A stretch of 49,109 bases of DNA, taken from positions 1-49,109 of the forward strand of contig CALDUF010000051.1 in the NCBI GenBank assembly GCA_937923515.1. Reading direction: 5' to 3'. Shown in pieces: positions 4,497-44,359 of this stretch. The notes below the pieces were generated by a model. That model saw nothing but the letters and a program-made list of their open reading frames with translations. It was not told the DNA's origin and ran no database searches. Numbering within the stretch: position 1 is the first letter of the stretch; each line of letters starts with the position of its first letter. The position numbers and the translations under genes were made by a program. Source of the DNA: an uncultured Flavobacteriaceae bacterium. Lineage in GTDB: Bacteria > Bacteroidota > Bacteroidia > Flavobacteriales > Flavobacteriaceae.

Positions 4497-6533
4497 ATGA
4501 TAGAATATTCATCGACAAACGGTTTTAAAACCAAATATAATACAGCCCCTTTTTCAAAAATTAAAGATGCACATTATTTGCCCGCATTTACTACTGCTAT
4601 AGCTGAAGCCAAGGCAGAAATTGATGCTATTACAAATAGTACAAATGCACCTACTTTTGAGAATACAATTGAAGCTTTAGAATTTTCAGGAGAAAAATTA
4701 GATAGAATTTCAAGTATCTTTTTTAATTTAAATTCTGCTGAAACGAATGAAACTATTCAAAGTATCGCTCAAGAAGTTTCGCCTTTACTTTCAGAATTTA
4801 GTAATGACATTACGTTGAATAAGGATTTATTTGAACGTGTTAAGGCGGTATATGACGCCAAAGCGACCTTAAATTTAACTATTGAACAACACACGTTGCT
4901 TGATAAAAAATACAAAGGTTTTTCTAGAAATGGTGCTAATCTTCCTGAAGATAAAAAAGAAAAACTGCGAGTAATAGATAAGCAATTGAGCCAATTAAAA
5001 TTAAAGTTTGGTGAAAATGTTTTAGCAGAAACCAATGCGTTTGAAATGCTAATTACCAATGAAGCAGACTTATCTGGTTTGCCAGATGGTGCAAAAGAAG
5101 CAGCAAAGCAATTGGCAGAAAGCAAACAAAAAGAGGGTTGGTTATTTACGTTAGATTACCCGAGTTATATTCCCTTTGTAACCTATGCCGATAATCGCGA
5201 ATTGCGTAAAAAAATCAGTATTGCAGCTGGTGCAAAAGGGTTTAAAGGTGATGATTTAGACAATCAAAATATTGTTTTAGATATTGTAAAATTAAGGCAT
5301 AATCGCGCTAATCTTTTAGGATATAAAACCCATGCGCATTTTGTTCTAGAAGAACGTATGGCTCAAACGCCAGAGACTGTTCTTGAGTTTTCAAACGACT
5401 TGTTAGAAAAAGCTAAACCCGCAGCAGAACGAGAATTTAAAACGCTAGAAAATTTTGCAAAAGATTTAGATGGTATTGAACAACTCCAAAAATGGGACGG
5501 TGCCTATTATTCTGAAAAATTAAAACAAAAACTATTCAGTTTAGATGATGAAATCCTGAAACCGTATTTTAAATTAGAAAGCGTAATTGATGGTTCGTTT
5601 AAAATAGCAGAAAAATTATTTGATTTACATTTTGAAGAAATTGATACTATTGATAAATACCATGACGATGTACTAACTTACAAAGTAACCGATTCTAAAG
5701 GTAATTTTATAGCTATTTTTTATGCTGATTATTTTCCAAGAGCAGGAAAACGCAACGGCGCGTGGATGACTGTATACAAACCACAATACATTAAAAATGG
5801 CGAAAATAGCAGACCACATATTTCCATTGTTTGCAATTTTACAAAACCCACTAAAACCAAGCCTTCGCTATTAACATTTAATGAAGTTACTACCTTATTT
5901 CACGAATTTGGGCATGCGCTACATGGTATGCTGGCTAATACCACCTACCCTAGTTTATCTGGCACCAGTGTATTTTGGGATTTTGTAGAATTACCAAGTC
6001 AGGTTATGGAAAACTGGTGTTACGAAAAAGAAGCATTAGAGTTGTTTGCTACACATTATGAAACAGGAGAAGTCATCCCGATGGATTTAGTTGAAAAAAT
6101 TAAGGCATCTGCCACGTTTCATGAAGGGATGCAAACTTTACGACAATTAAGTTTTGGACTATTAGATATGAGTTGGCATGGTACAAACCCAAGTGCTGTA
6201 ACCAATGTAAAAGCATACGAATCTAAAGCCTTTGAAAACACAAAATTATACCCAGATGTTGCTGAAAATTGTATGAGTACAGCATTTTCACATATTTTTC
6301 AAGGCGGGTATTCCTCTGGCTATTACAGCTATAAATGGGCAGAAGTTTTAGATGCCGATGCTTTTGAATTTTTTAAAGAAAAAGGTATTTTTAATAAAAC
6401 TGTTGCCAATAAATTTAAAGACAATGTATTAAGCCAAGGCGGTACAGAAAACCCAATGACGCTTTACAAACGCTTTAGAGGACAAGCACCCAAACCAGAA
6501 GCTTTATTAAAACGTGCTGGTTTGTTGAAATAG
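4497..6533 (+). CDS. M3 family oligopeptidase (Dcp/oligopeptidase A-like)
   Basis: Zinc metallopeptidase that degrades short peptides, probably in the cytoplasm because no signal peptide is visible. The 678-residue length is typical of the thimet oligopeptidase / oligopeptidase A / Dcp group. The zinc site is HEFGHALH at 469-476 (H469, E470, H473) with the third ligand E498 in FVELPSQ. The C-terminal half shows the conserved YSSGYYSYKWAEV stretch that shapes the substrate cleft. It stands alone, with no same-strand gene close by. Exact choice between Dcp and oligopeptidase A cannot be made from sequence alone. Confidence 0.93.
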   Translation: MIEYSSTNGFKTKYNTAPFSKIKDAHYLPAFTTAIAEAKAEIDAITNSTNAPTFENTIEALEFSGEKLDRISSIFFNLNSAETNETIQSIAQEVSPLLSEFSNDITLNKDLFERVKAVYDAKATLNLTIEQHTLLDKKYKGFSRNGANLPEDKKEKLRVIDKQLSQLKLKFGENVLAETNAFEMLITNEADLSGLPDGAKEAAKQLAESKQKEGWLFTLDYPSYIPFVTYADNRELRKKISIAAGAKGFKGDDLDNQNIVLDIVKLRHNRANLLGYKTHAHFVLEERMAQTPETVLEFSNDLLEKAKPAAEREFKTLENFAKDLDGIEQLQKWDGAYYSEKLKQKLFSLDDEILKPYFKLESVIDGSFKIAEKLFDLHFEEIDTIDKYHDDVLTYKVTDSKGNFIAIFYADYFPRAGKRNGAWMTVYKPQYIKNGENSRPHISIVCNFTKPTKTKPSLLTFNEVTTLFHEFGHALHGMLANTTYPSLSGTSVFWDFVELPSQVMENWCYEKEALELFATHYETGEVIPMDLVEKIKASATFHEGMQTLRQLSFGLLDMSWHGTNPSAVTNVKAYESKAFENTKLYPDVAENCMSTAFSHIFQGGYSSGYYSYKWAEVLDADAFEFFKEKGIFNKTVANKFKDNVLSQGGTENPMTLYKRFRGQAPKPEALLKRAGLLK

Positions 6534-6645: not shown

Positions 6646-6674
6646 ACCTCACAGGTTTTAAAAACCTGTGAGGT
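6646..6674. repeat. perfect 14-bp-arm hairpin (ACCTCACAGGTTTT type)
   Basis: A 29-base inverted repeat with arms ACCTCACAGGTTTT and AAAACCTGTGAGGT around one central A. It lies 112 bases after the M3 peptidase stop and 29 bases before the regulator's operator. I recall this hairpin as a dispersed repeat in Bacteroidota genomes. It could also stop transcription in either direction. Confidence 0.7.
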
Positions 6675-6702: not shown

Positions 6703-6730
6703 TAAACTTTCAATAATTATTGAAAGTTTA
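6703..6730. promoter_or_regulatory. operator-like perfect palindrome in the regulator promoter
   Basis: A 28-base perfect palindrome with core half-sites ACTTTCA-N8-TGAAAGT. It overlaps the presumed -33 TTG of the promoter (6720-6749) for the GbsR/MarR-type gene. The same half-sites with the same eight-base spacing recur at 7277-7300 in front of the first membrane gene. This suggests autorepression by the regulator. Confidence 0.65.
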
Positions 6731-6749
6731 GAAATTATTTATATATTTG
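6720..6749 (+). promoter_or_regulatory. putative promoter of the GbsR/MarR-type gene
   Basis: TTG (6720-6722), 19 bases, then TATATTTG (6742-6749), a good fit to the Bacteroidota TTG/TAnnTTTG promoter. The -7 box ends only four bases before the ATG, implying a leaderless or nearly leaderless message. The -33 element is within the palindrome 6703-6730. Confidence 0.55.
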
Positions 6750-6753
6750 TGCT

Positions 6754-7257
6754 ATGGAATATCAAGAAGCAAAAGAAAAATTTGTAAGTACTTGGGGAAG
6801 TTTAGGTACGTTATGGGGCATCAATAAAGCGATGGCGCAGATACAGGCGTTACTTTTTATTTCAACAAAACCATTATCTATGGAAGATATTATGGAAGAA
6901 TTAAAGATATCTAGAGGTAATACCAGTATGAATTTACGACAGTTAATGGATTGGGGTATTGTAACCAAAGAAATAGTTCGCGGTGAACGCAAAGAGTTTT
7001 TTACTACTGAAAAAGATGTACAAGAACTGGCAAGAATAGTAGCCAAAGAGCGTAGTCGAAGAGAAATAAAACCTGTTATAAAAGTTCTGGAAGAGGTAAG
7101 CACTATTAAAGATGACGGCACAGAAAAAACGAAAGAATTGATAAAACAAACCAGAGCATTAAAACACCTAACTGACGATTTAGATACTTTAATGAATAAA
7201 CTTGTAAACCAAAAACAAAACTGGTTAACAAAGTCTGTTTTTAAATTAATGAAATAG
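6754..7257 (+). CDS. GbsR/MarR family transcriptional regulator
   Basis: A 167-residue winged-helix DNA-binding protein of the GbsR type, which resembles MarR. Residues about 30-95 hold the fold: the N-terminal helix with WGINKAMAQIQALLF, the recognition helix region ISRGNTSMNLRQLMDWGIV, and the wing GERKEFFT. The C-terminal third is helical and charged, probably for dimerisation. Family members often control osmolyte or membrane-stress genes. Here it is the first gene of a cassette with small membrane proteins, and it has a perfect palindrome over its own promoter plus a related site after its stop codon, so it very probably regulates itself and the downstream genes. The inducing signal is unknown. 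Confidence 0.88.
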   Translation: MEYQEAKEKFVSTWGSLGTLWGINKAMAQIQALLFISTKPLSMEDIMEELKISRGNTSMNLRQLMDWGIVTKEIVRGERKEFFTTEKDVQELARIVAKERSRREIKPVIKVLEEVSTIKDDGTEKTKELIKQTRALKHLTDDLDTLMNKLVNQKQNWLTKSVFKLMK

Positions 7258-7276
7258 AAAATATTTTTTTAAACAC

Positions 7277-7300
7277 AACTTTCAATATTTTCTGAAAGTT
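7277..7300. promoter_or_regulatory. second operator-like site, before the membrane genes
   Basis: AACTTTCA-N8-TGAAAGTT, an imperfect palindrome with the same half-sites and spacing as 6703-6730. It lies 14 bases upstream of the first membrane gene. No clear TAnnTTTG box is visible next to it, so it may be an internal operator. Confidence 0.55.
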
Positions 7301-7313
7301 TAAAATACACAAA

Positions 7314-7667
7314 ATGAGCTATAACATCTTATCATATGTCATATATATTCCTATAATTTCCTTCATAATGATTCATGTTGGTTGGTTATTTTATAAAAAT
7401 GGAGAAATATTTCTTCTTAATTTATTTCAATACGATAAACTGCTTGTAAAAAGTATCAATAATATTCTATTAATAGGTTATTATTTATTAAATCTTGGAT
7501 ACGCCATTATAAGTATAGCCTATTGGGAAAAAATCAACTCAATTTCTGAAATGTTGAACGCTCTAAGCCATCATTTAGGAATTATAATCATGGGACTGGC
7601 AGTAATGCATTACAACAATGTCCTCTGTCTTACTTACTATGTCAAATCAAAATTATTAAATCAATAA
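7314..7667 (+). CDS. small membrane protein, paralogue A
   Basis: Unrecognised 117-residue protein with about three to four hydrophobic membrane segments (near 6-26, 50-70 and 85-105). It is a clear paralogue of the next gene: both share the order YxIYxPI, F-KNG-xF, an acidic or basic loop, then IGYYLLNLGYA / IGFYLINIGWA. The function is unknown; lack of charged residues in the membrane parts argues against an ion transporter. It is preceded by an operator-like site and followed after three bases by its paralogue, so it is surely cotranscribed with it. Confidence 0.75.
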   Translation: MSYNILSYVIYIPIISFIMIHVGWLFYKNGEIFLLNLFQYDKLLVKSINNILLIGYYLLNLGYAIISIAYWEKINSISEMLNALSHHLGIIIMGLAVMHYNNVLCLTYYVKSKLLNQ

Positions 7668-7670
7668 ATC

Positions 7671-8069
7671 ATGGAAAATTCAAAAATTATTATCGGCTAT
7701 TTAATTTATTTACCAATTGTGATTGTGCTAACAATTTACGTATCGAAGATGCTTTTTAAAAATGGAAAGTTATTTATGATAGACATTTTTAAAGGGAAAG
7801 AAGATATTGCGACAGCAACCAACAAACTATTTGAGATAGGATTTTATCTTATAAATATAGGTTGGGCTATGCTAATCTTAAAAATTTCTTACTACAGTAG
7901 TAATGGAATGAACTACCAAACACTTATTGAAATATTAAGTAAAAAAATTGGTGGATTCTCAATCTATCTGGGAGTAATGCTATTTATAAATCTATACTTA
8001 TTCTTTAGAGGAAGACGAATTTCTAGACAACAAAGCAGTAATAACGAAAATCAAATACAAAACCATTAA
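7671..8069 (+). CDS. small membrane protein, paralogue B
   Basis: Unrecognised 132-residue protein, homologous along its length to the preceding gene, with about four membrane segments and a polar C-terminal tail (RRISRQQSSNNENQIQ) that paralogue A lacks. It starts three bases after the stop of paralogue A; the next small frame begins three bases after its own stop. The tandem pair looks like a gene duplication. No catalytic motif is seen, and I infer only a role in the envelope under control of the upstream GbsR-type regulator. Confidence 0.75.
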   Translation: MENSKIIIGYLIYLPIVIVLTIYVSKMLFKNGKLFMIDIFKGKEDIATATNKLFEIGFYLINIGWAMLILKISYYSSNGMNYQTLIEILSKKIGGFSIYLGVMLFINLYLFFRGRRISRQQSSNNENQIQNH

Positions 8070-8072
8070 TTC

Positions 8073-8186
8073 ATGAAGGCTCTGCATTACATAAACTCTT
8101 TATTTTATGGACTTACAATAATACCATATTTAACTATACACTATTTTGCATATGGCGTGTATGCTCAATTTTTACTTGGAATATAA
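8073..8186 (+). CDS. 5' part of a membrane gene cut by an in-frame stop
   Basis: A 37-codon frame (begins MKALHYINSLFYG, ends AQFLLGI) followed by TAA at 8184-8186. The downstream frame at 8190 is in the same register, only CAA away. Read through, the two parts make one protein of about 115 residues with four membrane segments, and the junction LGI-stop-QMVIALILLLY looks like continuous membrane sequence. From memory, flavobacterial cassettes of this kind carry an intact gene here with a YAQ-xLG-xxQ pattern. Probably a nonsense mutation in a once single gene; a real tiny protein cannot be excluded. Confidence 0.45.
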   Translation: MKALHYINSLFYGLTIIPYLTIHYFAYGVYAQFLLGI

Positions 8187-8189
8187 CAA

Positions 8190-8420
8190 ATGGTAATTGC
8201 TTTGATTCTTTTGTTATATATCAAAAAATTTAATTTAAAAGTAAAAAGACACTTTAAGAATTATTGGATATCGACTTTAGGAACACTTTTAATTTTATTT
8301 CTATTTTCTCAAACAGAACAAACAATTAACGAGGCTTTAGTGATCGAATTTCTATTTATAATTCCAATATTTATTGCGAGTTATTTTATTTATATAACCT
8401 ATTTAATTCAAAAAAAATGA
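8190..8420 (+). CDS. 3' part of the split membrane gene
   Basis: A 76-residue frame starting at an ATG two codons past the TAA of the preceding piece and in the same frame. It has two or three membrane segments (about 1-13, 29-44 and 50-72) separated by the basic stretch KKFNLKVKRHFKNYW. It could be made by re-initiation at the nearby ATG, giving a truncated or two-part protein. Its stop overlaps the start of the epimerase gene (ATGA), so translation of that gene is probably coupled to this one, which may be why the frame has stayed open. Confidence 0.55.
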   Translation: MVIALILLLYIKKFNLKVKRHFKNYWISTLGTLLILFLFSQTEQTINEALVIEFLFIIPIFIASYFIYITYLIQKK

Positions 8421-9319
8421 AAACAATTATAATCGCAGGTGGAAGTGGATTTCTTGGAAATGTATTAGAAAAACACTTTACCCATAGAAATTATATCGTT
8501 AAAATATTAACCAGAACACCAAAGAGGGAGAATGATATTTTATGGAATGCTAAAAGCTTAGGAAAATGGACAAACGAGATTGAAGGATCTGAAGTTATTA
8601 TAAATCTCACAGGGAGATCTGTTGACTGTAGATATACTGAGGAAAATAAAAAATTGATTTATGATTCTAGAATAGATGCAACACAGGTACTTGGTTTAGC
8701 TATTAATCTTTGCGAAAACCCGCCGAAGACTTGGATAAACTCTTCTACAGCTACAATTTATAAACATTCGTTAAATAAAGAAATGACGGAAGAGAATGGA
8801 GACATTGGCAATGACTTTTCAATGAATATTGCAAAATCGTGGGAAACTACTTTTAACTCAATTGTAACTCCAAAAACAAGAAAAATAATATTAAGAACCT
8901 CTATTGTTTTTGGTAAAAATGGTGGTGCTTTTATTCCACTAAAAAATCTAGTTAAATTTGGTTTAGGAGGAAAACAAGGGTCTGGTCAACAAAAAGTAAG
9001 CTGGATTCATGAAGTAGATTTTAGTAGAGCAGTAGAATTTTTAATTGATAATAAAAAACTTGATGGCGTGTTCAACTTAAGCGTTCCTAGTCCTACGGAC
9101 AACTCAACTTTAATGAAAACACTAAGAAGTATACTAAAAATTCCTTTTGGAATTGCTCACTCAATAGCTTTATTGAAAATTGGTGCTAAAATAATTGGTA
9201 CAGAAACTGAACTAGTATTAAAAAGTAGAAACGTCGTTCCATATCGTCTCTTACAGAATAATTTTAAGTTTACTTTCACAAATATAGAAACCGCTTTGAG
9301 GGATTTGGTTACTACCTAA
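8417..9319 (+). CDS. TIGR01777 family epimerase (SDR39U1-like)
   Basis: A 300-residue extended short-chain dehydrogenase of the TIGR01777 group. The N-terminal Rossmann fold has GGSGFLGNVL (8-17). The family stretch NLTGRSVDCRYTEENK, the WINSSTATIYKH active-site region and the late VSWIHEVDFSRA segment are present; the C-terminal part matches the family's small domain. Substrate is not known for the family. It is the last gene of the GbsR-type cassette, translationally coupled (4-base overlap) to the split membrane gene. Downstream is a repeat-filled convergent spacer. Confidence 0.9.
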   Translation: MKTIIIAGGSGFLGNVLEKHFTHRNYIVKILTRTPKRENDILWNAKSLGKWTNEIEGSEVIINLTGRSVDCRYTEENKKLIYDSRIDATQVLGLAINLCENPPKTWINSSTATIYKHSLNKEMTEENGDIGNDFSMNIAKSWETTFNSIVTPKTRKIILRTSIVFGKNGGAFIPLKNLVKFGLGGKQGSGQQKVSWIHEVDFSRAVEFLIDNKKLDGVFNLSVPSPTDNSTLMKTLRSILKIPFGIAHSIALLKIGAKIIGTETELVLKSRNVVPYRLLQNNFKFTFTNIETALRDLVTT

Positions 9320-9740
9320 TAACTTGCACAAAATAACAAGGCTTAGAGTTAAGTATATTACTGCCAGTTGATTGCGTTAAGAGTTGCACGTAGAAAGCAT
9401 TTACGATACACTCAATGCACTAATGAACTTCTAGGCAAAAAAAGCGGCATTCTTTATGTAAAGCACTAAAAAGAGAAACCTTAATTAAATTAAAACGTTT
9501 CATTTTAGGGAGAAATCTACAAACACGTTCGGTTATACTTCCTAGAAAGATATACAACAACATTTATGTTCATGAATTTAGCACTGTAAGAAAGAAATAC
9601 ATGAATAAAATCCCTAGACGAAAAGGGTAACGCCCAAATATCCGTTTATAAAAAACTGTCTCGTAGTTAACTTGTATGACTTTTTATCTATTACGATTTT
9701 AACAATAATAACTACATAATTTTCACTAAAACACAACCAA
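9320..9740 (+). repeat. convergent spacer with long intergenic repeat, copy 2
   Basis: Spacer of 421 bases between two converging genes, with no credible coding frame. From about 9362 to 9637 it aligns in order with 43449-43722: a GCATTTnCGATACnCT segment, ACTAAAAAnAGanAAACCTTAATT, AGAAAGATATA...CATTTATG-TCATGAATTTA, and a GGGTAACGCCCAAA end. The beginning (GATTGCGTTAAGAGTTG) resembles GTTGCGTTAGGGATTG at about 19980. It is a degenerate member of the dispersed repeat family; no terminator with a U-tract is obvious. Confidence 0.6.
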
Positions 9741-36409: not shown

Positions 36410-38308
36410 TTATTTTTTTCGTTTTTGTTGCATTTGCTTTTGCTGTTCTGCCTGCTCCATCATTTGTTTCATTTTAGCTTGAAACTTACTTTGCTTTTTA
36501 GGCTTCTTTTTATTCTCCTGCAATTGCGCATGAATTTTATCTTCATCTAAAATATAATTCTTTATTACTAGAATAATTCCAATACTAATTACATTAGATA
36601 TAAAGTAATACAAACTCAATCCAGAGGCATAATTATTAAAGAAAAACAACATCATTAACGGTGAAAAATACATCATATATTTCATCATTTTCCCCATATC
36701 TGGCATACCCTCTTGTTGTGGTTGCGATTGGATATTTTGCCCTGTTGTTAATCGCATGTAAAAGAAAATAGCAACTGCTGCAAGTATAGGAAATAAACTT
36801 ACGTGGCTGCCGTAAAACGGAATGTTAAATGGTAAGTTGGCAACGGTATCATACGATGATAAATCTTCTGCCCATAAGAAGCTTTTTTGACGTAAATCGA
36901 AAGCAGATGGGAAAAATTGAAACAATGCATAAAACACTGGCAATTGTATTAAAGCTGGCAAACATCCAGCTAGAGGGCTTGCGCCTGCCTTAGTTTGTAG
37001 CGCCATGGTTTCTTGCTGCGCTTTCATTTTATTATCCTTGTACTTTTCTCTAATGGCATCGAGCTCTGGCTTTAAAATTTTCATTTTTGCCTGAGACAGA
37101 AACTGCTTGTATTGCACAAAAGACAATAGAATTTTCACCAAAATCGTCATGACTACAATAGCAATTCCGTAAGGTAAAAACCCTCCTAAAAAGCCAAATA
37201 ACGGCATGAATATATAGCGGTTTATCAAACCAAAAATACCCCAACCAAATGGTACAATTTCATCTAGATTTCTGTCGTAACTGTTTAAAACTTCAAAATC
37301 ATTAGGACCTATGTACCAATCCATAGATTCGTTTATTTCACCACCTTTTAATGCTAACGGAATTTTAGAAGTAAACATTTTAGTGTAAACCGTATCGATC
37401 TCCTCGTCTTCTACTAAATTTTCAGTAGTTATTTTTGCAGATTTAAACGGTGCATCTGTTAGTAACACCGAAGAGAAAAAGTGTTGCTTATACCCTATCC
37501 AAGCCACATCATTTAAATCATCATCACCATCGCGTGCGCCAGTATAATCGGCGTTTCCACCATCGTGTTCGTAATGAATATCGGTATATCTGTTTTCGTA
37601 TGAAATACTTTTGGCATGGCGATAGCCTTTTAATTTCCAATCTAAATTAATAGCTTGAGAACTATTTATCACATCACCAAAACCTTGAGATTTCACACTA
37701 AAATCAATCATGTAATCTGCTGGTTTTAGCTCGTATCTATACTCTAAAAACTTGCTTTCAGAAACTTTAAATTTCATGGAAACAATGGTATTCTCTCCAT
37801 TTTTTGACACTGTTGGTTGAAAATAGCGTTCTTTTGTATTAATAACTCTACTATCAGTTGTACCAAAACCTAAATTAAAAAGCGCGTTGTTATCTTTTAC
37901 GATGTAAATAGGCACAGAGTCATAATCTACAAATTGTTTTAATTTTACTTCAGATAAATAACCACCTCTATGATTAAACTTAAGCTTAAAAACATCGGTC
38001 TCAACTTCTGTTTCGTTTTTTCCTGTGGCTAAGGTTTCAGAGTAGGCTAAAATGCCTAATTTATTTTTTAGTTGTACTAAACCTAAAGAATCTAAATCTT
38101 TAGCAGGCGTATAATCGTTTGGCGTAGTTACTAGAGTTTGATTATCAACTTTAGCTTTTTCTTGTGCCGCTACCTGTTCTTGTTTTGCTTTTTCTTGAGC
38201 TTCTAATTCTTCTGGTGTTGGCTTATTTTGCCAAAACATGTAAATCATGATAGCAAAAATGAGAACAAAGCCTATAATTGAGTTAATATCTAACTTCTTT
38301 TCTTCCAT
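36410..38308 (-). CDS. yidC: membrane protein insertase YidC
   Basis: 632-residue inner-membrane insertase/chaperone. N-terminal membrane helix (about 10-25), a polar linker, the periplasmic beta-sandwich domain (about 90-345) and the conserved five-helix core (about 365-585) with the cytosolic helical hairpin rich in Lys and Gln (QAKMKILKPELDAIREKYKD) and MALQTKAGASPLAGCLPALIQLPV. Positively charged C-terminal tail binds ribosomes. pyrG lies 87 bases upstream on the same strand. Confidence 0.96.
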   Translation of the reverse strand: MEEKKLDINSIIGFVLIFAIMIYMFWQNKPTPEELEAQEKAKQEQVAAQEKAKVDNQTLVTTPNDYTPAKDLDSLGLVQLKNKLGILAYSETLATGKNETEVETDVFKLKFNHRGGYLSEVKLKQFVDYDSVPIYIVKDNNALFNLGFGTTDSRVINTKERYFQPTVSKNGENTIVSMKFKVSESKFLEYRYELKPADYMIDFSVKSQGFGDVINSSQAINLDWKLKGYRHAKSISYENRYTDIHYEHDGGNADYTGARDGDDDLNDVAWIGYKQHFFSSVLLTDAPFKSAKITTENLVEDEEIDTVYTKMFTSKIPLALKGGEINESMDWYIGPNDFEVLNSYDRNLDEIVPFGWGIFGLINRYIFMPLFGFLGGFLPYGIAIVVMTILVKILLSFVQYKQFLSQAKMKILKPELDAIREKYKDNKMKAQQETMALQTKAGASPLAGCLPALIQLPVFYALFQFFPSAFDLRQKSFLWAEDLSSYDTVANLPFNIPFYGSHVSLFPILAAVAIFFYMRLTTGQNIQSQPQQEGMPDMGKMMKYMMYFSPLMMLFFFNNYASGLSLYYFISNVISIGIILVIKNYILDEDKIHAQLQENKKKPKKQSKFQAKMKQMMEQAEQQKQMQQKRKK

Positions 38309-43807: not shown

Positions 43808-44359
43808 ATGCCCACACACACAATTGACCCGAATAAATGGATAGACCTTTATTCTGACTACCTTTTTAATTATACAATTACACGTGTTAGCGATCGTGAA
43901 ATTGCCCAAGATTTGGTACAGGAAACCTTTTTTGCTGGATTAAAGTCTATGAAAAATTTTAAAGGTGAAGCAAGTGAGCGTACTTGGTTGATTTCCATAC
44001 TTAAACGTAAAATTATTGATCATTACCGTAAAATAAATTCTAATAAAGGTAAAGCCGAAGTTAGAATTAATTATAATGATTCTGAAAGTGAAGGCGATTG
44101 GTTGGAAGAACGCGTTGCCGACCCTTATGACAAAACTGCTGAAGATAATATACAAAACAATGAGCTTGGTAGTGCTATACAAAATTGCCTAGACAAATTA
44201 CCTATTAAGCAAGCAGAGATTTTTAGAATGAAAACGGTTTTAAATTATGAAACTGAAGTAATTTGTAATGAACTAAACATTACAGCGTCTAACCTATGGG
44301 TAATTATCCATAGAGCAAGAACAGCTATGGCAGATTGCTTAAAAGAAAATTGGTTTTAA
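43808..44359 (+). CDS. ECF RNA polymerase sigma factor
   Basis: 183-residue group 4 sigma factor. Region 2 about residues 11-78 (YLFNYTITRVSDREIAQDLVQETF; SERTWLISILKRKIIDHYR) and region 4 about 125-180 (LPIKQAEIFRMK...ITASNLWVIIHRARTAM). A TTG at 43766 opens a longer frame, but its extra 14 residues are hydrophobic and contain the promoter box, so the ATG at 43808 is chosen. Its stop lies three bases before the anti-sigma-like gene. Divergent from a large outer-membrane barrel gene. Confidence 0.92.
   Translation: MPTHTIDPNKWIDLYSDYLFNYTITRVSDREIAQDLVQETFFAGLKSMKNFKGEASERTWLISILKRKIIDHYRKINSNKGKAEVRINYNDSESEGDWLEERVADPYDKTAEDNIQNNELGSAIQNCLDKLPIKQAEIFRMKTVLNYETEVICNELNITASNLWVIIHRARTAMADCLKENWF

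Follow-up and report, generated by a model that had tools for sequence, protein, structure and literature searches.

The closest described counterpart of the locus reported here is that of CydE, a GbsR-type repressor of cydAB in Alishewanella sp. WH16-1, whose gene is co-transcribed with its targets and for which sulfate is reported as a derepressor (PMC6096048). According to the accessible part of that report, the CydE DNase footprint, TATTTCAGAAATTTCTGAAAGTTCA, contains the core TTTCA-N8-TGAAA in the form TTTCAGAAATTTCTGAAA, a second CydE site is without this core, and both sites lie in one promoter region (PMC6096048). The same part of the text makes no mention of a palindrome, an inverted repeat or a motif, and the 18-base core string was found in literature text in this paper only, subscription papers lying mostly outside the search. 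In B. subtilis, as described in the available sections, GbsR works by roadblocking transcription, OpcR by covering the -35 element (PMC7396694). The GbsR operator there has a spacer of 4 bases, so family membership alone does not set the operator. A survey of the family, in its accessible part, describes Bacteroidetes members without a consistent gene neighbourhood or role (PMC6207618). No prior work on a Bacteroidota GbsR operator was found in the literature searched, which covered few subscription papers.

The window, that is the whole stretch of DNA analysed, comprises 49,109 nucleotides from an uncultured member of the Flavobacteriaceae (contig CALDUF010000051.1); among named organisms this genome is closest to Algibacter and Winogradskyella. 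On its + strand, positions 6754–7257 encode a regulator of 167 amino acids, identified as GbsR/MarR-type by profile and homology searches. The protein contains a winged-helix MarR-type domain (Pfam MarR_2, 36.8 bits against a cut-off of 27), scores above the Pfam cut-off for HTH_5 as well, and over residues 4–133 is homologous to the GbsR family's structural template, Mj223 (1KU9; phmmer E 6.1e-21). The GbsR-type call of the original prediction holds by sequence and by the annotation of homologues, and on these grounds the regulator is a member of the GbsR family. Judged by an equivalog model and by its gene neighbourhood, it is not a choline-type GbsR: it scores 50.7 bits against a cut-off of 218 with the CudC model NF047500, and neither the genes of the window nor the ten cargo and flank proteins scanned include any for betaine synthesis or Opu transport. 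From the two-fold symmetry of the operator described below and from homologues, we infer a dimer that represses transcription.

Two candidate operators accompany the regulator gene. The first, O1 (TAAACTTTCAATAATTATTGAAAGTTTA, 6703–6730, strandless), is a perfect 28-base palindrome with the core TTTCA-N8-TGAAA at 6708–6725. The second, O2 (AACTTTCAATATTTTCTGAAAGTT, 7277–7300, strandless), is palindromic except at its centre and carries the same core at 7280–7297; it lies between the regulator stop codon and the first cargo gene, its 22-base motif (7278–7299) standing 20 bases past the former and 14 bases ahead of the first cargo ATG. Both the perfect palindrome and the slightly imperfect second site ahead of the membrane genes had been predicted correctly to the base, and so had the half-sites ACTTTCA and TGAAAGT, common to the two with exactly eight bases between: ACTTTCA-N8-TGAAAGT without mismatch has two matches in the window, namely O1 and O2. 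At up to three mismatches there are 6 matches against a chance mean of 5.7, the four besides O1 and O2 bearing three mismatches each. A second, unrelated inverted repeat with AAACCTGTGAGGT arms is found upstream of O1, at 6646–6674, and is unique within the window even when one mismatch is allowed.

The presumed -33 element of the regulator promoter, TTG (6720–6722, + strand), falls inside the right half of O1, as had been proposed, and stands 19 bases from a sigma-A -7 box, TATATTTG (TAnnTTTG; 6742–6749, + strand). Because this box occupies -12 to -5 relative to the start, according to the accessible part of PMC9723704, transcription is predicted to begin at 6754, the A of the regulator ATG, so that the mRNA is predicted to be leaderless. 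The same part of that source gives 5.5% of the mRNAs examined in F. psychrophilum as leaderless. With all sets of loci pooled, an exact TAnnTTTG lies 3' of O1 in 125 of 138 O1-bearing loci, and the predicted leader measures 0 nt in 101 of them and -1 in 11, so the leaderless regulator mRNA, as a prediction, itself appears conserved.

A search of one-per-species genomes with the regulator as query yielded 381 relatives; the top 80 were retained, and in 80/80 of these loci both sites are present at 12 or more of the 14 positions. The motif is kept upstream of orthologous regulators also in genomes sampled by rank, where within the short clade (164–170 amino acids) O1 occurs in 27/27 family-sample, 10/11 order and 13/15 class/phylum loci; in the 27 family-sample upstream regions 0.03 chance matches are expected from dinucleotide shuffles. 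The corresponding figures for O2 are 26/28, 9/11 and 3/15, leaving it absent from two, two and 12 loci, respectively, and therefore not essential to the regulator family. Since O1 is widespread and O2 scarce beyond the order, O1 looks ancestral and O2 looks mainly a trait of the window's order. The farthest O1 carrier, L148, has a regulator of 38% identity to that of the window, and seven further family loci (L121, L123, L124, L130, L162–L164) have both sites in every case. Distant matches were fetched after selection by eye (11/34 at order level, 11/21 at class level, 14/71 at phylum level). L130 was counted outside the 11-locus order set, L122 was left out as a wrong region, L118 was left out of the O1 counts and the tree as its contig begins within the gene, and L085–L092 and L165–L182 stand outside the further locus analyses. 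In ten loci of a longer GbsR clade (190–215 amino acids), neither O1 nor O2 reaches 12 of the 14 positions (0/10), and one of the ten has a bare core within 300 bases upstream; in eight of these loci a gene for what is presumably a YraN-like protein lies 3' of the regulator. In two phylum-level loci, L145 and L147, the regulator with O1 alone is followed by a gene which we take to encode a 1-deoxyxylulose-5-phosphate synthase-like protein.

The core is invariant in 107 distinct O2 sequences and changed at one base in one of 89 distinct O1 sequences, the threshold for the compared sites, at least 12 matching positions out of 14, leaving room for core changes; the changes lie almost all at the two outer positions. 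Across 60 short-clade loci, a spacing of 8 between TTTCA and TGAAA was counted in 119 cases, against 1–12 for each other spacing from 0 to 26. The position of O2 is likewise regular: in 111 of 126 loci it begins 13–24 bases past the regulator stop, and in 101 of 126 it ends 14–18 bases ahead of the first ATG. Some 85–100 additional bases separate the regulator stop from O2 in L026, L032, L034, L036, L038, L039 and L044. The centre of O2 is conserved yet non-palindromic, which is not explained by simple dimer binding.

Palindromes of this kind could in principle act as RNA elements, be it a hairpin, a terminator or a processing site, and O2 does fold into a hairpin of modest stability (-6.6 to -6.9 kcal/mol, z -1.9 to -2.8). 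Nevertheless, this reading was dropped and its probability is close to negligible: O1 precedes the predicted start and so falls outside that mRNA, the core is invariant, O2 is absent from the terminator-like matches, and there is little covariation, with 2 compensatory against 47 one-sided changes at motif positions 1–2 of O2 and 5 against 24 in O1.

Away from the regulator locus the full motif is not scattered through genomes. In the window's own genome (2.71 Mb, 87.6% complete), exact ACTTTCA-N8-TGAAAGT is confined to O1 and O2, and two more matches with 1 mismatch both lie within reading frames. Among 149 family genomes, the regulator locus accounts for 36 exact sites; the 8 copies elsewhere compare with 7 of the reversed control pattern, so the full motif is at background off the locus. 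The regulator is present in 29 of these 149 genomes (E up to 1e-20), an exact site stands beside it in 24 of the 29 and a site with 12–13 of 14 positions in four, and in the last the contig begins within the gene. Within the window's genus, a total of 17 exact sites is spread over 10 of 12 genomes, and one of the two genomes without them (G004) has an empty site, of which more below. As the binding of the regulator to its sites is argued from sequence, they might be true operators of a different DNA-binding protein; this is very unlikely, given that the sites follow this regulator clade, that the full motif elsewhere is at background, and that the footprint of the homologue CydE, in the accessible part of the report, has the same core (PMC6096048).

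The bare 10-base core behaves differently from the full motif, with 25 copies in the window's genome against 14 for its reversed control, which puts a strict single-locus regulon in doubt, and weaker further targets of the regulator in this genome are possible. Two of the 25 copies are O1 and O2 and one lies in the open reading frame at 36410–38308; among 20 others examined, 18 fall in stop-free frames of 180 codons or more (whose coding nature is not proven), and L221 and L232 lie outside such frames. The L221 copy (1016–1041) is a core-bearing palindrome, AAGGTTTCAGTAAATACTGAAACCTT, in no long open frame, and could be an extra target or a terminator stem.

The original prediction of a binding site for the regulator within a closed regulatory loop is supported by these comparisons, and the explanation we consider probable is autorepression at O1 combined with a roadblock at O2 in one operon, released by an inducer. 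A GbsR-family, CydE-like dimer would recognise TTTCA-N8-TGAAA. Bound at O1, whose position over the -33 element implies steric autorepression, it would exclude RNA polymerase and so impose negative autoregulation on the predicted leaderless mRNA. The regulator and its cargo would form one operon transcribed from the regulator promoter; a dimer at O2 would halt those polymerases that leak past O1, so that new repressor is still made but the cargo remains silent, and an inducer would free the dimer from both sites, allowing the membrane- or lipid-type cargo to be made. Binding by the regulator, repression, the roadblock at O2, co-transcription and induction are what we infer from the arrangement of the locus. 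The scheme resembles that of B. subtilis GbsR and OpcR in protein family and repressor logic, with both modes proposed here for one protein; in the accessible parts of the sources, the B. subtilis system differs by its other, A/T-rich operators, its control by choline or glycine betaine and its betaine/Opu targets (PMC7396694, PMC6207618).

O2 looks like an operon-internal roadblock and not a second promoter block, which is the simplest reading of its place between the regulator stop and the cargo ATG with no exact -7 box nearby: TAnnTTTG is found in 0 of 126 loci, for boxes whose first base falls 3–50 bases 5' of O2 or 20–44 bases 3' of the first base of O2. The same repressor and sites would also serve if the cargo had a weak, non-canonical promoter of its own at or before O2, with O2 blocking the access or escape of polymerase. 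A weak cargo promoter is possible because, once one mismatch is tolerated, 81 of 126 loci show a -7-like box within the 50 bases 5' of O2, and shuffled sequences give 39; up to 72 loci with TAnnTTTT at -16 to -18 and a conserved T-rich stretch before O2 point the same way. Against it stand the absence of the exact box from the stretches scanned and the AAAAAAATTTAA-like sequence which the other displayed loci carry there instead, and we hold this variant to be rather unlikely. Five class-level loci have palette genes and no O2, the gaps between gbsR and the next gene being -4, 5, 70, 97 and 122, so that gbsR overlaps or nearly touches its neighbour in two of the five, which counts in favour of the roadblock scheme.

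The distance between the two sites bears on another possibility, in which O1 and O2 cooperate through a DNA loop of about 570 bases that silences the promoter. The sites share their core and lie at a near-constant distance (565–573 in 98 of 125 loci), but this distance follows from the constant length of the gene, the distances range over 559–665 without helical phasing evident by eye, and no sign of tetramerisation was seen; looping is improbable.

In the window, the autorepression and roadblock scheme would govern a short series of genes on the + strand. T1 (7314–7667) encodes a small membrane protein of 117 amino acids with no Pfam match, whose fold prediction was judged weak (mean pLDDT 75, pTM 0.43), and T2 (7671–8069) a small membrane protein of 132 amino acids and 29% identity to T1. 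Module S (8073–8420), also a small membrane protein, is broken in this assembly by one in-frame stop after codon 37 (open part 8190–8420), full-length relatives of about 112 amino acids being common. E (8417–9319) is a TIGR01777-family SDR oxidoreductase (259 bits, cut-off 207). Across loci the modules comprise TIGR01777 SDR, CMAS-like methyltransferase, fatty acid desaturase, DCC1-like, DUF2071, DoxX-like and small membrane proteins, from which palette we would guess at a membrane or lipid stress response. TIGR01777 genes (E <1e-40) occur in 17 of the 149 genomes, all 17 within the 29 regulator genomes (Fisher 5e-15, kinship uncorrected). A cassette TIGR01777 gene with several stop codons, apparently decaying, was seen in L181 and L182 (G062). 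The palette recalls the light-inducible LitR/PmlR clusters of Pseudomonas, where a short-chain dehydrogenase, a fatty-acid-modifying enzyme and genes of unknown function are linked to the regulator; the likeness is one of palette only, since those clusters, in the accessible part of the report, have a LitR/CarH-type regulator and photolyase genes (PMC9758184) and no light link was found here. Rhodopsin is present in 4 of the 29 regulator genomes (one below the family cut-off) against 26 of the 120 without the regulator (Fisher p 0.44), so that a light or rhodopsin connection is not supported. A defence island as a reading of the variable cargo was rejected: in a PADLOC scan of 10 proteins the regulator gave weak Csa3/CasR-type HTH matches (best 2e-6), attributed to a generic domain, and the resemblance of module M to mad2 (3e-12) was likewise taken as a generic domain match.

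The cassette occupies a recurrent site. Its left side is formed by an M3-family oligopeptidase gene (4497–6533, + strand in the window), preceded here by genes which we take to be purK and purE, and its usual right flank is an ECF sigma gene, reached within the fetched flank in 75 of the best 80 of 381 relatives. In the window this gene (43808–44359, + strand) lies about 34 kb farther on, positions 9320–43800 parting it from the cargo it usually follows directly, which suggests that the customary arrangement was disrupted by an insertion or a rearrangement. The ECF sigma factor was discarded as a required part of the system, being present in 120 of 149 genomes with the regulator in only 29. 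Among 20 cassette-less ECF regions (19 from regulator-less genomes and one from a genome with the regulator elsewhere), 15 have the M3 and ECF genes directly side by side, 35–141 bases apart, an arrangement taken as an empty site and seen also in G004 of the window's own genus. In L187, L188, L191, L201 and L202 other genes fill the M3–ECF gap without a cassette, and the gap may therefore be a small insertion hot spot.

Between regulator and ECF gene those 75 loci show 35 distinct cargo arrangements, 5 of which include unrecognised open reading frames, and on the regulator tree each module changes state 3–31 times, a rough count based on 111 loci, a single FastTree tree and open reading frames from a simple caller. 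Four loci (L067, L100, L124, L130) have a further operator match (13 or more of 14 positions) between cargo genes, each directly 3' of module S and ahead of four different next genes; a fifth such match is intragenic, and over all loci the reversed control yields 2. Their position after module S fits operators copied along with modules. A tentative and somewhat doubtful extension is that O2 and its copies (O3) serve in Bacteroidota as joints for swapping membrane-stress modules at one site under a fixed GbsR control head, with the core kept across phyla; a newly inserted module would come under control by lying 3' of an operator.

The regulator of the window is 96% identical to that of L005, from another genus, and 82–86% (six), 95% (one) or 49–51% (two) to those of its genus mates. 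For the flanking protein TM277 the identity is 60% to L005 and 57–75% to genus mates, and the M3 and ECF identities differ little between L005 and the genus-mate groups. This gives a weak hint of horizontal exchange. No match was found for phage carriage. Plasmid carriage was rejected, the 157 plasmid records matching the regulator all being below 60% identity; the ten named genera are Proteobacteria, and four more genera include Azospirillum and one archaeon.

Twelve of these GbsR-like plasmid loci from outside the phylum were compared, 3 from the best matches and 9 spread down the list, the gene start in the unannotated L211, L213 and L216 being set by alignment or analogy. The exact core lies within 45 bases upstream of the gene in 7 of the 12, all seven alphaproteobacterial. 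Five alphaproteobacterial regulators are followed by cydD and another by a gene for a cytochrome ubiquinol oxidase subunit, a CydE-type neighbourhood. TTTCT-N8-AGAAA is found in Methylobacterium, Cupriavidus and Burkholderia, thus in both betaproteobacterial loci, and the Pseudoalteromonas locus has one half of each core form; these four further loci all fit TTTCN-N8-NGAAA. Neither form was found at the archaeal locus, one of the 12. The Methylobacterium regulator precedes a DUF4166 and an SDR protein. Residue 59 of the recognition helix was considered as the setter of TTTCA versus TTTCT and gave no clean rule.

At the window's locus, TTTCA-N8-TGAAA likewise stands close to the regulator's own start, and the regulator most likely acts on its operator as CydE does, by analogy with a GbsR-type protein whose footprinted site 1, as given in the accessible part of its report, lies in its own promoter region with the core and the same N8 spacing (PMC6096048). 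The two systems differ in that CydE targets cytochrome bd, whereas no cyd genes were found among the recognised cargo here and the second matched site of this locus separates the regulator from its cargo.

By these comparisons the operator core extends beyond the window's phylum, and its presence in alphaproteobacterial loci together with the Alishewanella footprint suggests that part of the GbsR family may be annotated from DNA alone. If true, pairing an autorepressor with an internal roadblock would offer a simple means of supplying repressor with the operon tightly off. Part of the Bacteroidetes GbsR group would thereby gain a defined operator, a concentrated locus and a cargo palette, making its function directly testable.
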